Positions 25,115 through 43,068 of a stretch of DNA of 64,000 bases are shown piece by piece (position 1 is the stretch's first letter; every line of letters begins with the position of its first letter). The stretch is from Streptomyces sp. NBC_00659 (GTDB lineage Bacteria; Actinomycetota; Actinomycetes; Streptomycetales; Streptomycetaceae), in assembly GCF_036226925.1 (NCBI RefSeq), contig NZ_CP109031.1, forward strand, positions 2,108,001-2,172,000, in the 5' to 3' direction. A program made the translations under genes and the position numbers. Below the pieces are notes generated by a model that did no database searches, was not told the DNA's origin, and saw only the letters and a program-made list of their open reading frames with translations.

Positions 25115-25188
25115 GGTGGAGTGGCCGAGAGGCGAGGCAACGGCCTGCAAAGCCGTCTACACGGGTTCAAATCCCGTCTCCACCTCCA
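25115..25188 (+). tRNA. tRNA-Cys (anticodon GCA)
   Basis: Acceptor GGTGGAG/CTCCACC, anticodon arm ACGGC-CTGCAAA-GCCGT giving GCA, and T-arm GGGTTCAAATCCC. The only tRNA in the window with an encoded CCA (25186-25188). Confidence 0.96.
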
Positions 25189-38396: not shown

Positions 38397-39230
38397 CTAC
38401 TTGAACGACGGGATGACGGAGCCGGCGTACTTGTCCTCGATGAACTTCTTGACCTCGGGCGAGGTGAGGAGCTTCGCCAGCTTCTTCACACGCGGGTCGT
38501 TCTCGTTGCCCTTCTTGACGGCGAGGAAGTTGCCGTACGGGTTGTTCGTCGCCGACTCCAGGACGAGGGCGTCCTTGGCGGGCTTGAGGCCGGAGGATAT
38601 GGCGTAGTTGCCGTTGATCACCGCGGCGTCCACGTCGTCCAGGGAGCGCGGGGTCTGAGCCGCCTCGACCTCCTTGAACTTGAGGTTCTTCGGGTTCTTG
38701 GAGATGTCCTGCGGGGTCGCCTCGCTGCCGGCGCCGTCCTTGAGGGTGATGAGCCCCTTGGACGCGAGCAGCTTCAGGGCACGCGCCTCGTTCACGGCGT
38801 CGTTCGGCACCGCGACGGTCGCGCCGCTCTTCAGGGCGTCGACGCTCTTCACCTTGTGCGAGTAGAGGCCGAGCGGCTCCAGGTGCACCGTGACGACGGG
38901 CACGATGTGCGTGCCGCGCTTCTTGTTGAAGTCGTCCAGGTACGGCTGGTTCTGGAAGTAGTTGGCGTCCACCGAGCCGTCCTCGGTCGCCGTGTTCGGC
39001 ACGATGTAGTCCTGGAACTCCTTGACCTCCAGGTCGAGTCCCGCCTTCTTCGCCAGGTTCTTCTCGATGAAGTTCAGGATCTCGGCGTGGGGGACCGGGC
39101 TGGCCGCGACGATGAGCGGGCCGCTGGTGTCGGAGGCGGTGGAGTCCTTGTCCGAGCCGCAGGCGGAAAGCCCGAGGGTGAGGGCTCCGGCGGCGAGGAC
39201 GGCAGTGGTGATCTTGGCAGTGTTACGCAC
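38397..39230 (-). CDS. metQ: methionine-binding lipoprotein
   Basis: A 277-residue NlpA/MetQ-family protein. The lipoprotein signal ends in LGLSACGS (Cys at about 24). The mature domain has VAASPVPHAEILNFI, DYIVPNTATEDGSVDANYFQ and AVPNDAVNEARALKLL, the classic MetQ landmarks. It captures D- or L-methionine outside the membrane for MetNI. GTG 39230 follows AGGAAAGG. Last gene of metN-metI-metQ, 97 bases after metI. Confidence 0.95.
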   Translation of the reverse strand: MRNTAKITTAVLAAGALTLGLSACGSDKDSTASDTSGPLIVAASPVPHAEILNFIEKNLAKKAGLDLEVKEFQDYIVPNTATEDGSVDANYFQNQPYLDDFNKKRGTHIVPVVTVHLEPLGLYSHKVKSVDALKSGATVAVPNDAVNEARALKLLASKGLITLKDGAGSEATPQDISKNPKNLKFKEVEAAQTPRSLDDVDAAVINGNYAISSGLKPAKDALVLESATNNPYGNFLAVKKGNENDPRVKKLAKLLTSPEVKKFIEDKYAGSVIPSFK

Positions 39231-39327
39231 GAAAAGTGCCTTTCCTGAGGGGTGAAGCGGCCCCGTCATGGGGTGGACGGGGAAATCTGCGGGTGGGGCC
39301 GGGGACCACGGGTGGGTCCGCGGTTGT

Positions 39328-40065
39328 TCAGGCTGCCTCGCCGACGTCCGTGGTCACGGGCCGGCCGGACTTCAGCAGGCGCAGCCTCGGGGCGGGGCCC
39401 GAGTGACCGCTCCGGCGGTCCAGGGTGCGGGCCGCGTAGTCGCCGGCGAACTGGATGGCCGAGATGACCACGGCGAGGAGGGCGACGATGATCCACATCA
39501 GCTCGGTCTCGAAGCGCTGGTAGCCGTAGCGGATGGCGAGATCGCCCAGTCCGCCCGCGCCGACGGTGCCGGCCATCGCGGAGTAGCCGATGAGGGCCAC
39601 GACCGTGGTGGTCCCCGAGGAGATCAGCGACGGCAGCGACTCGGGGACGAGAACCTTGCGGACGACGGTCCAGGTGTTGCCGCCCATCGACTGCACGGCC
39701 TCGACGAGCCCGCCGTCCACCTCACGGACGGCCGTCTCGACCAGACGCGCGAAGAACGGGATCGCACCGATGGCGAGCGGCACGATGGCGGCCTCGCGGC
39801 CGATGGTCGTGCCGGTGATCCACCGGGTGAAGGTCATCAGCGCGACCATCAGGATGATGAACGGCATCGAGCGGGCGATGTTCACGACCTGCCCGACGAC
39901 CTTGTTGGCGACGACGTTCTGCAACAGGCCCCCGCGGTCCGTCAGCACCAGCAGGACACCGAGCGGCAGGCCGCCGGCGATCGCGATGAGGGTGGACCAG
40001 CCGACCATGTAGAGCGTGTTCCAACACTCCTCGGACAGCAGCGGCTGCATCTCGGACCAGCTCAC
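39328..40065 (-). CDS. metI: methionine ABC transporter permease
   Basis: A 245-residue permease with about five membrane spans. Landmarks are WNTLYMVGWSTLIAIAGGLP, NIARSMPFIILMVAL and the coupling loop EAVQSMGGNTWTVVRKVLVP. GTG overlaps the stop of metN (GTGA), so translation is coupled. The C-terminal tail is longer and more basic than in E. coli MetI. Confidence 0.95.
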   Translation of the reverse strand: MSWSEMQPLLSEECWNTLYMVGWSTLIAIAGGLPLGVLLVLTDRGGLLQNVVANKVVGQVVNIARSMPFIILMVALMTFTRWITGTTIGREAAIVPLAIGAIPFFARLVETAVREVDGGLVEAVQSMGGNTWTVVRKVLVPESLPSLISSGTTTVVALIGYSAMAGTVGAGGLGDLAIRYGYQRFETELMWIIVALLAVVISAIQFAGDYAARTLDRRSGHSGPAPRLRLLKSGRPVTTDVGEAA

Positions 40066-41111
40066 TTGGCACCTTCCTTGACCAGCGTGGGCTGCTGCCC
40101 CTGGATGTCGATCTGCAGGCCCTGCTCGCGGAGGAACCCGATCGGCACGACGTTCTCCTCGTAGCGGCCGGGCAGCTCGATGCGCATCCGGCCGACCTGC
40201 CTGCCCGCGACGGTGTCCATCGCGGCCCCGAGGATCGAGATGTCGATGTTGTACGTGCGCGAGAGCTGCGAGATGACGGGCTGGGTCGCCGACTCGCCGT
40301 GGAAGGTGACGTCGATGACCGTGCGGTCGTCGCCGGAGGCCTCGCCGCTGACGGGGAAGAGCGAGGCGGCCAGCTCGGAGCCCGGGGTCGCGAGCAGTTC
40401 GCCGACCGTTCCGGACTCGACGATGCGGCCGTTGTCCATCAGCGCGGCCGAGTCGCAGACGGTCTTGACGACGTCCATCTCGTGGGTGATGAGCAGGACG
40501 GTCAGACCCAGCTGCCGGTTCAGGTCGCGCAGGAGCTGGAGGATGGAGCGGGTGGTCTCGGGGTCGAGGGCGCTGGTCGCCTCGTCGGAGAGCAGCACCT
40601 TCGGGTCGCCGGCCAGCGCGCGGGCGATGCCGACTCGCTGCTTCTGGCCGCCGGAGAGCTGGGCCGGGTAGGACCCCGCCTTGTCGGACAGGCCGACCAG
40701 GTCCAGGAGTTGGCGGGCCTTGTGGCTGCGCTCCCTCCTGGAGAGGCCGAGAATCTCGAGCGGCAGCTCGACGTTGTCCTGGACGGTCCGCGAGGACAGC
40801 AGGTTGAAGTGCTGGAAGACCATGCCGATCCGGCTGCGGGCCTGGCGCAGCTCCCGGCCGGCGCGCGGACCGCGCCCGACGAGAGCGGTGAGGTCCCGGC
40901 CGTCGACGGTGACCGTGCCGGAGGTCGGACGCTCCAGGAGGTTGACGCAGCGGATGAGCGAGGACTTGCCGGCACCGGACTGGCCGATGACGCCGAACAC
41001 CTCGCCTTCGCGGACGTGCAGATCGACGCCGTCGAGGGCGGTCACTTCACGGCCGCGCGAGCGGTAGACCTTGGTGAGGCCCGTTGTCGTGATCACAGGG
41101 GATTCCGTCAC
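40062..41111 (-). CDS. metN: methionine ABC transporter ATP-binding protein
   Basis: A 349-residue ATPase. Walker A is GQSGAGKS, the signature is QLSGGQKQR, Walker B is VLLSDEAT and the switch His is LLITHEMD. The C-terminal NIL domain (SATQPVISQLSRTYNIDISI) binds methionine and shuts the transporter when the cell is replete. GTG 41111 and GTG 41096 (VITTTGLTK) are both possible; neither has a strong ribosome binding site. The upstream region carries a Met/Cys-rich leader ORF. Confidence 0.94.
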   Translation of the reverse strand: MTESPVITTTGLTKVYRSRGREVTALDGVDLHVREGEVFGVIGQSGAGKSSLIRCVNLLERPTSGTVTVDGRDLTALVGRGPRAGRELRQARSRIGMVFQHFNLLSSRTVQDNVELPLEILGLSRRERSHKARQLLDLVGLSDKAGSYPAQLSGGQKQRVGIARALAGDPKVLLSDEATSALDPETTRSILQLLRDLNRQLGLTVLLITHEMDVVKTVCDSAALMDNGRIVESGTVGELLATPGSELAASLFPVSGEASGDDRTVIDVTFHGESATQPVISQLSRTYNIDISILGAAMDTVAGRQVGRMRIELPGRYEENVVPIGFLREQGLQIDIQGQQPTLVKEGAK

Positions 41112-41303
41112 TGTCGAGTGCGGGGCGTGGGTGTGCGCCGGGCACGGGTGCATTCGGTCGCAACGCGGCACGGTTCTCGCGATGGCGATGGAACCGGAAG
41201 GAGAACGTGTGCGCGGGGCAGCCCGGTCACGTACGCGGTACGGACACGGGGCGCGGCGGTCCCGCTTCGGGGCGCGGGATCAGGCGGTGGTGCGGGGGGC
41301 CCT

Positions 41304-41348
41304 CTAGCAGGCACACATTCGACACATACAACGAGCACCGGGCGTCAT
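41304..41348 (-). CDS. Met/Cys-rich leader peptide upstream of metNIQ
   Basis: A 14-codon ORF reading MTPGARCMCRMCAC, stop TAG. GAGG lies 5 bases before the ATG, a good site. Three Met and five Cys in 14 residues, alternating at the end, are far above chance in this genome. The ORF ends about 190 bases before metN in the same direction. Small dyads lie between (41260-41279 and 41171-41196). I infer a translated leader that senses charged tRNA-Met/tRNA-Cys or sulphur amino acid supply. An upstream in-frame ATG (41390) has no ribosome binding site. Confidence 0.6.
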   Translation of the reverse strand: MTPGARCMCRMCAC

Positions 41349-41425
41349 GGTCGCCTCGGTCGCAAGGATGCGGTCGCTCGTCGTGGTCATGGGAGGAAGT
41401 AAAGCAGACCGGGGGCCGGGGGCCG

Positions 41426-41456
41426 CCACCGCTGTCCGAATAGCGGACAGCGGTGG
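41426..41456. promoter_or_regulatory. 13-bp perfect palindrome between HAD gene and met leader
   Basis: CCACCGCTGTCCG, 5 bases, CGGACAGCGGTGG. It lies 19 bases past the stop of the HAD gene and about 75 bases before the leader peptide. It can be the terminator of the HAD gene, although no T-run follows on the minus strand, or an operator for the met operon. Confidence 0.6.
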
Positions 41457-41474
41457 ACACCGGCGGACGCCTTC

Positions 41475-42122
41475 TCAGGCCCGGACGGAGATCTCCATCC
41501 CCTTGTCCGTCACCAGTACGGACAAGGCGGAGAGGTCCTCGACCACGAGGTCCGCGTCGAGTTCGCCGGCCTGGTGCGTTGTGGCCAACGCCACGGTGGT
41601 CATGCCCGCGGCGCGGCCCGCCCGGAGCCCGGCGGGGGCGTCCTCGAAGACGACGCAGCGGGCCGGGTCGACGCCCAGTTCGCGGGCGGCCAGCAGATAG
41701 GGCTCGGGGTCGGGCTTTCCCCGGGTGACGTCGTCGGCGCAGACCATCGTCTTGGGGCGGATCCCCACCTCGTCGAGCCGGGCTTCGGCGAGCCTGCGGG
41801 TGGCGGAGGTCACGACGGCCCAGCGCTCGGCGGGCAGTCCGGCGAGCAGCGCGAGGGTGCCGGGCAGCGCCTCGACCCCGCCCGGCACGTCGTCGACCTC
41901 CAGCTGCTCGATGCGGGCGAGCGCCTCGGGGACGAGGGCGGCGGGCAGCAGGTCGGCGGCTATCTCGACGGCGGGGCGGCCGTGCAGGCCGATCGCGGCG
42001 AAGTCCTCGGCGGTGATCCCGTACTCCTCGGCCCACAGGGTCCAGCAGCGGTTCACCGACTCGAGGGACGAGACGAGGGTGCCGTCGTTGTCGAACAGGA
42101 GGGCTTCAGCGTGGATCGTCAT
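41475..42122 (-). CDS. HAD-superfamily sugar-phosphate phosphatase-like hydrolase
   Basis: A 215-residue HAD subfamily IA enzyme. Motif I is FDNDGTLVSS (nucleophile Asp), motif II VVTSAT, motif III Lys in RGKPDPEPYLLAA and motif IV VFEDAPAGLRAGRAAG. The cap is the small helical type of beta-phosphoglucomutase or sugar phosphatases. The substrate is probably a sugar phosphate. The first Asp is followed by Asn-Asp in place of the usual x-Asp, which is common in this branch. Divergent from the membrane protein gene at 42192. Confidence 0.92.
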   Translation of the reverse strand: MTIHAEALLFDNDGTLVSSLESVNRCWTLWAEEYGITAEDFAAIGLHGRPAVEIAADLLPAALVPEALARIEQLEVDDVPGGVEALPGTLALLAGLPAERWAVVTSATRRLAEARLDEVGIRPKTMVCADDVTRGKPDPEPYLLAARELGVDPARCVVFEDAPAGLRAGRAAGMTTVALATTHQAGELDADLVVEDLSALSVLVTDKGMEISVRA

Positions 42123-42552: not shown

Positions 42553-43068
42553 ATGACGGCCACGGAGGAGAACACGACCGTGCCTCGGGACGAGCGGAAC
42601 GCGCAGGGCGTGCAGGGCGTGCAGGGCGTGCAGGACGGAACGACGCCGGAGCCGGCCGCCGGCACGAAGCGCGCGCGGCTGATCGGCGGCCCCGGGATCC
42701 TGCTGGTGTGGCTGTACGGAGTGATGGTGGTCGGCGCCGTGTCGCGGTCGGCCGTGCAGATCTCCACGCAGTTCGACAAGGCACCGCTCGCCTACTCGCT
42801 GTCCGCGGTCGCCGGTCTCGTGTACGGATTCATCACGTACTCGCTCGTGCGCGGCGGCGAGAGGGCGCGCAGGGCGGCGCTGGTGTGCTGCGCCGCCGAG
42901 CTCGCGGGTGTACTGATCGTCGGGACCTGGACGCTGGCCGAGCCCTCCGCCTTCCCCGACGCCACGGTGTGGTCGGACTACGGCATGGGCTATCTCTTCA
43001 TCCCGGTCCTGCTGCCGCTGTCGGCGATGTACTGGCTGCGCAAGGCGCGTAGGACCGCCGCTGTCTGA
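42553..43068 (+). CDS. integral membrane protein, partner of the preceding gene
   Basis: A 171-residue protein. The hydrophilic N-terminus contains a threefold QGV repeat from a perfect 9-base repeat at 42604-42630. About four hydrophobic spans follow (GGPGILLVWLYGVMVVGAV first). One base separates it from the previous gene, which suggests the two proteins act together in the membrane. Function unknown. Confidence 0.85.
   Translation: MTATEENTTVPRDERNAQGVQGVQGVQDGTTPEPAAGTKRARLIGGPGILLVWLYGVMVVGAVSRSAVQISTQFDKAPLAYSLSAVAGLVYGFITYSLVRGGERARRAALVCCAAELAGVLIVGTWTLAEPSAFPDATVWSDYGMGYLFIPVLLPLSAMYWLRKARRTAAV

Follow-up and report, generated by a model that had tools for sequence, protein, structure and literature searches.

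The metNIQ locus and its leader frame

We analysed a window of 64,000 nucleotides of Streptomyces sp. NBC_00659 DNA, in which a short reading frame rich in Met and Cys codons precedes the genes of a methionine importer, metNIQ. The coding features and the element 5' of the leader are as follows.

38397..39269, minus strand: metQ-like lipoprotein ORF (lipoprotein-like N-terminus)
39328..40065, minus strand: metI, permease (Pfam BPD_transp_1)
40062..41096, minus strand: metN, ATPase with NIL domain (Pfam ABC_tran and NIL), start reassigned to the probable GTG at 41096
41304..41390, minus strand: metL leader ORF, 28 codons (frame, conservation and ORF scan; S. lividans ortholog reported leaderless)
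41307..41330, minus strand: Met/Cys codons 21-28 of the leader, C M C R M C A C (codon conservation)
41316-41321, minus strand: CGA-ATG, the most conserved piece of codons 21-28 (codon conservation)
41398..41406, minus strand: TGCTTTACT, a -10-like box (extended form) 7 nt 5' of the leader ATG, with place and sequence conserved at almost every aligned locus

The leader frame, upstream of metNIQ on the minus strand (41390-41304), encodes MTTTSDRILATEATMTPGARCMCRMCAC. The sequence-only reading had described a Met/Cys ORF of 14 codons, started by an inner ATG with a good ribosome binding site (RBS). That ORF, MTPGARCMCRMCAC (ATG 41348, stop TAG 41306-41304, minus strand), is indeed present, stop included, but it is the 3' half of the true frame of 28 codons. 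The inner RBS is not a conserved initiation signal, because ATG 41390 is kept in all 125 strictly matched Streptomyces leaders, whereas position 15, the inner ATG, is Met in 53 of the 125. The leader stop was also said to lie about 190 bases before metN, which holds for GTG 41111 (192 nt). The metN start, however, is probably GTG 41096, in the conserved GTG-ATC-AC, as GTG 41111 is present in 106 loci and is out of frame with GTG-ATC-AC in 36 of these.

The leader is the sole ATG-started ORF of 12-45 codons with at least four Met/Cys among its last 12 residues on both strands of the 64-kb window; 20 shuffles gave an expectation of 0.15 such ORFs per window at this threshold and of 0 at six or more. 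A search of the genome for a second copy with leader model R1 returned one significant match, the other four having E > 1. Around the leader, a HAD-type hydrolase gene (41475-42122, minus strand) ends 85 nt 5' of the leader ATG. A small, membrane-protein-like ORF lies at 42553-43068 (plus strand), and the direct repeat GTGCAGGGC at about 42600-42640 (plus strand) codes for (QGV)n near its N-terminus. A tRNA-Cys gene (anticodon GCA; 25115-25188, plus strand) is clustered with tRNA-Gly and three tRNA-Val genes 16 kb from the leader.

Nearly all relatives have TGnTTTACT, or a sequence close to it (for example TTTAAT or TTAACT), 5' of the leader ATG. A scan with the sigma-70 consensus found no promoter, so that TGCTTTACT is taken as a putative promoter element. 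The sequence-only reading was aware of no earlier description of a leader with this sequence. One had, however, been published in 2021: metL (SLIV_29928), which precedes metNIQ in S. lividans TK24 and is leaderless (PMC8079986). The window leader, directly upstream of metNIQ, is its ortholog, as judged from the aligned leaders and the metN and metI domains. Given the conserved box 7 nt 5' of the ATG and the leaderless S. lividans ortholog, the window leader is most likely leaderless too, with the transcript probably starting at the leader ATG; in the window organism itself the evidence for this is the conserved TTTACT box.

Conservation in Streptomyces and spread beyond it

We searched 150 genomes for metN and found a close copy in 143 (best E 3.3e-140 or lower), the best E values in the remaining 7 being about 1e-54 to 1e-61. 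Loci were sampled from 130 of the 143 (30 loci and 100 regions, the other 13 genomes being left out), and one (L125) was dropped from the Streptomyces set because it ran into a contig end, leaving 129 usable loci. The leader is present at every one of these 129 Streptomyces metN loci, all of which extend far enough upstream; a strict rule identified it in 125 and reading in the other 4. A conserved Met/Cys-codon leader co-occurring with metN before metNIQ, as had been proposed, is thus borne out; alignment of the region upstream of metN likewise confirmed a conserved ORF frame, though not a conserved inner start and RBS. When 391 genomes of the order were scanned with leader model R1, 365 gave a match, at a single site in all but a few; these are matches to the leader, with the downstream gene checked for a subset. 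The 7 Streptomyces lacking an R1 match have no metN ortholog at 1e-100.

The leader is conserved in its frame, its codons and its RNA. Of 100 leaders with a length of exactly 28 codons, 99 have CGA24, 99 ATG25, 95 TGT23, 99 GGT18 and 98 GCT19, and codons 6, 8, 9, 14 and 15 were variable; TGT accounts for 256 of the 381 Cys codons counted. We then have a set of 159 leaders, made up of the 129 from Streptomyces, 28 divergent ones (hand-picked from weaker R1 matches and other genera), L194 and L195. The frame is kept across this set at lengths of 26-38 codons. Arg-Met stands within the last eight residues in 158 of the 159 (the exception is L124), the last Met is the fourth codon before the stop in 154, and a Cys lies within the last 12 residues in every one. 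The conservation of the frame argues that the ORF is translated. The codons, together with the gene context, point to sensing of Met/Cys, presumably with Met as the main signal and Cys as the second. As the frame is kept, and as variable codons are mostly unpaired while fixed codons fall in predicted stems, the ORF is constrained both as a frame and as an RNA.

Outside Streptomyces, another genus of the same family has the leader MTTTTTCIPTGATPAGERRMCRRMRRMCCR (L194). In a second family of the order metN was present in 7 of 14 genomes, and four of these seven loci have leaders, such as MIDTQSSRTSAAILAPRMMCGMPMCRMCSC with TATAGT 5' of its ATG; of the other three, two lack a leader by the rule used and one locus is short. 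We searched 250 genomes of family f19 with core model R2 and obtained 22 strong matches (E < 1e-11) in three genera. All 22 are followed, 306-669 nt beyond the leader stop, by an ORF with a Walker A motif (a metN-type ATPase), and each of the 22 peptides has RMC near its end. The leaderless box was scored absent by script in 2 of the 22, and one start is uncertain. The largest genus among them is probably Actinomadura, since one member's metN product shares 81-88% identity with proteins from Actinomadura. Weak R2 matches (E about 1e-4 to 0.01) were taken as chance; those examined have CGA-ATG nearby and neither a leader nor a Walker A ORF.

Met/Cys-rich leaders were also seen 5' of metN in 21 of 75 regions outside Streptomycetales, compared with 1 of 3750 shuffles, and by the same rule 54 of the 75 have none; this count omits L293 (102 bases) and L217 (no candidate), and would be 21 of 76 with L217; one locus, L259, was short. 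Different Met/Cys leaders at other distant metN genes end in AMGGMPSMR or MMCGCRPA, or hold CCRMRMGRM. Within family f19, a type ending in AMGGMPSMR (L213, L215, L240, L251) and a type ending in MMC(G/C)CRPA (L248, L250, L266, L270) are both without the CGA-AUG/GGGCCCC core.

Predicted RNA structure of the leader and spacer

Folding and alignment of the leader and of the spacer between its stop and metN gave the following elements.

41328..41384, minus strand: predicted three-way junction inside the ORF (RNAalifold consensus)
41384-41376/41336-41328, minus strand: P1 (RNAalifold consensus)
41372-41369/41364-41361, minus strand: P2 (RNAalifold consensus)
41360-41352/41344-41337, minus strand: P3 (RNAalifold consensus)
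41296..41302, minus strand: GGGCCCC, directly 3' of the stop codon (exact or nearly exact GGGCCC in 176 of 179 loci)
41261..41278, minus strand: hairpin H1, CCCGC-GCCCCGAA-GCGGG (H1-type loop in 174 of 179 loci)
41118..41145, minus strand: hairpin H4 (GUGC...GCAC), directly 5' of UCGACAGUGACGGAA (folding, arm pairing)

In the 129 loci the stems of P2 and P3 are almost invariant with variable loops, and up to 14 of these loci show A-C mismatches in P1 without compensation. Mean column entropy of the predicted junction is 0.10 for paired and 0.43 for unpaired positions. The 179 loci scored for GGGCCCC and H1 are the 129, the 28 Streptomycetaceae and the 22 Actinomadura-like ones. In 169 of them the H1 loop is exactly GCCCCGAA, and the 14-base H1 word occurs once in the genome. 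Compensatory changes in H1 are few (two pairs changed on both sides, each in 2 of 36 distinct hairpins), and covariation was rejected as proof of its pairing: the paired fraction, 94.4%, falls inside that of shuffles (mean 92.3%, maximum 95.0%). With so little variation in H1 and P1-P3, covariation tells little about them, and a possible GGGC/GCCC pseudoknot is beyond such a test because both sides are nearly invariant. Three loci (L034, L058, L171) keep the leader, lack H1 and have short spacers; H1 may therefore not be needed in them, or something else may stand in for it.

In 120 of 122 loci (7 of the 129, having no anchor, were left out) the end of H4 lies no more than 3 nt from the CGACA motif 5' of metN, and the mean folding z is -2.2. 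Over 103 distinct H4 hairpins, pairing is stronger between the two arms of one hairpin than between arms of different ones (-18.0 versus -15.1 kcal/mol), and in 76% of comparisons the hairpin's own 3' arm equals or beats the foreign one; the anchor for this comparison was placed by pattern matching, which put it wrongly in a few divergent loci, such as L172. UCGACAGUGACGGAA itself deviates in L044, L119, L120 and L128-L130 and is nearly fixed elsewhere. The spacer is C-rich, with on average 46% C and 29% G in 125 spacers; C/(C+G) of the window spacer is 0.63, a level reached by 0.6% of 190-nt windows. No intrinsic terminator (GC-rich hairpin and T tract) was found in 41050-41480. An Rfam search of the metN leader gave no family match and no riboswitch, the single match being a chance one at E 4.3, in agreement with the earlier statement that no SAM riboswitch is seen here.

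Proposed attenuation, its alternatives and related systems

Met/Cys codons lie before the stop of a leader that stands ahead of a Met importer and is kept in frame, position and RNA. We therefore propose, with a probability of roughly 0.72, that metL is a ribosome-mediated attenuator of metNIQ which senses Met and probably also Cys. The transcript would begin at the leader AUG, so that ribosomes would start on the leader immediately. When Met-tRNA (and Cys-tRNA) abounds, the ribosome would read through C-M-C-R-M-C, reach the stop four codons past the invariant Met and depart; the C-rich spacer would then be exposed, and the transcript would be ended or not expressed before metN. With charged Met-tRNA (or Cys-tRNA) scarce, the ribosome would stall at CGA-AUG-UGY with its front near the stop. 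It would thereby open the P1 junction and alter what GGGCCCC/H1 and the spacer can do, and metNIQ would be expressed. The stalling, the identity of the signal and the direction of the response are what we infer, and the output step is the least certain part of the scheme. For that step we tentatively prefer termination of the Rho or U-less type to a masked metN start, since the spacer is C-rich and there is no U tract; C-richness alone is weak evidence for Rho.

We folded 60 randomly drawn loci with and without a ribosome placed on the Met/Cys codons. The ribosome lowered P1 from 0.93 to 0.00-0.11, and predicted access of the metN RBS was the same, 0.46 without and 0.46-0.48 with the stalled ribosome. 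Since the ribosome abolishes P1 and RBS access does not change, start masking is unsupported, and masking of the metN RBS was rejected as a candidate. The only consistent side effect was on local pairing of the H4 3' arm, which rose from a mean of 0.48 to 0.64-0.68 in the 60 loci; the window locus went the other way, with a drop from 0.40 to 0.07-0.18. The classical attenuator with alternative structures that the sequence-only reading had envisaged was not supported, there being no intrinsic terminator in the region scanned and no competing-structure switch opening the metN RBS in these folds.

A rival explanation is translational attenuation, in which UGUCGAAUGUGYGC of the leader would pair over about 200 nt with GCGCACUCGACA 5' of the metN RBS and a stalled ribosome would free the metN start. 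RNAalifold on the full leader does propose a long-range UGUCGA/UCGACA helix, and both UGUCGA and UCGACA are common among the loci. However, leaders with insertions lack UGUCGA while UCGACA remains (for example L011, L018, L067), UCGACA is altered in L044, L119 and L120 with no matching change, masking the leader leaves the predicted RBS access as it was, and the GCGCAC part is already accounted for by H4. Because insertion leaders break the helix while the metN side stays, we downgraded it as a switch and consider translational attenuation unlikely. The missing Rfam match also speaks against a ligand-binding, riboswitch-like RNA with an incidental ORF, as do the ATG, stop and frame, which are maintained despite indels, and the leaders of other families, which change sequence and keep their Met/Cys codons. 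Even with conservation at the nucleotide level, rare codons that are kept, and invariant stems with variable loops in its favour, we judge such an RNA very improbable.

An arrest peptide, through which a metabolite would be sensed as the peptide is made, would fit the C-terminal RMC shared across families. The remainder of the peptide nevertheless varies widely, and nucleotides are conserved as well as residues, which leaves this explanation with a very small share of our belief. Short ORFs are common, and the plus strand of the region also carries open frames; but a leader in 129 of 129 loci that recurs in other families, against the 0.15 expected per window, makes a functionless chance ORF extremely improbable.

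Ribosome-mediated attenuation, if correct, may be one instance of something wider. We tentatively suggest, at somewhat less than even odds, that Actinomycetes have an old and widely distributed class of Met-import attenuators that are leaderless and sense Met(/Cys). These would share an RNA core that matches nothing in Rfam: CGA-AUG fixed four codons ahead of the stop codon, GGGCCCC beside that codon, and H1, whose GCCCCGAA loop may form a pseudoknot with GGGC. Formation of this element would depend on exactly where the ribosome stands on the last codons, U-less or Rho-type termination would be the output, and several further types of Met/Cys leader would precede the same gene in other actinomycete lineages.

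The closest known system is S. lividans metL, which has the same gene context and whose peptide, MSTTSDRTPATEATTTPGARCMCRRMCAF, is identical to that of the L035 and L037 leaders (PMC8079986). The passages on metL in that paper name Met and Thr as the notable residues, recognise no Rho-independent terminator, as here, and call termination unclear (PMC8079986). That account, in its part on metL, concerns one species; added here are the conservation, the Cys/Met pattern, the RNA core and the spread. The S. lividans copy was thus already known, the wide spread and conserved RNA core seem new, and our work is a large extension of a brief earlier description and not a first description. Among the literature matches listed, from a search largely outside subscription journals, titles and abstract openings mention no leader before metN besides S. 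lividans metL.

Mycobacterial polycysteine leader peptides are reportedly leaderless, to go by the title of Canestrari 2020. This work on mycobacterial Cys leader peptides is mentioned in PMC9094748. The leader peptides of mycobacterial cys operons are likewise short, with Cys codons near the stop and no obvious terminator, and in 2005 Rho was suggested for them (PMC1262725). They differ in having poly-Cys and cys genes, where the metL leader has alternating Met/Cys codons, the invariant CGA-AUG, metN and the conserved GGGCCCC/H1. Streptomyces-metH (RF03063) and Streptomyces-metK (RF03076) are likewise cis-acting RNAs upstream of Met/SAM genes in Streptomyces, according to a passage of PMC8079986; unlike them, the metN leader matches no Rfam family. 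Attenuators of the trp type in Streptomyces and Corynebacterium, as outlined in PMC1262725, also carry regulatory codons in a short leader. The metN leader resembles them in its short ORF, whose translation the conserved frame suggests, with codons for amino acids of the pathway near the stop. It lacks their GC-rich hairpin with T tract and, unlike them, has no U-tract terminator and no demonstrated antiterminator. The conserved GGGCCCC/H1 element, with no U-tract terminator beside it, bears on attenuation in high-GC actinomycetes, and a leader in every usable Streptomyces metN locus would tie Met uptake to the charging of Met/Cys-tRNA in a model genus.
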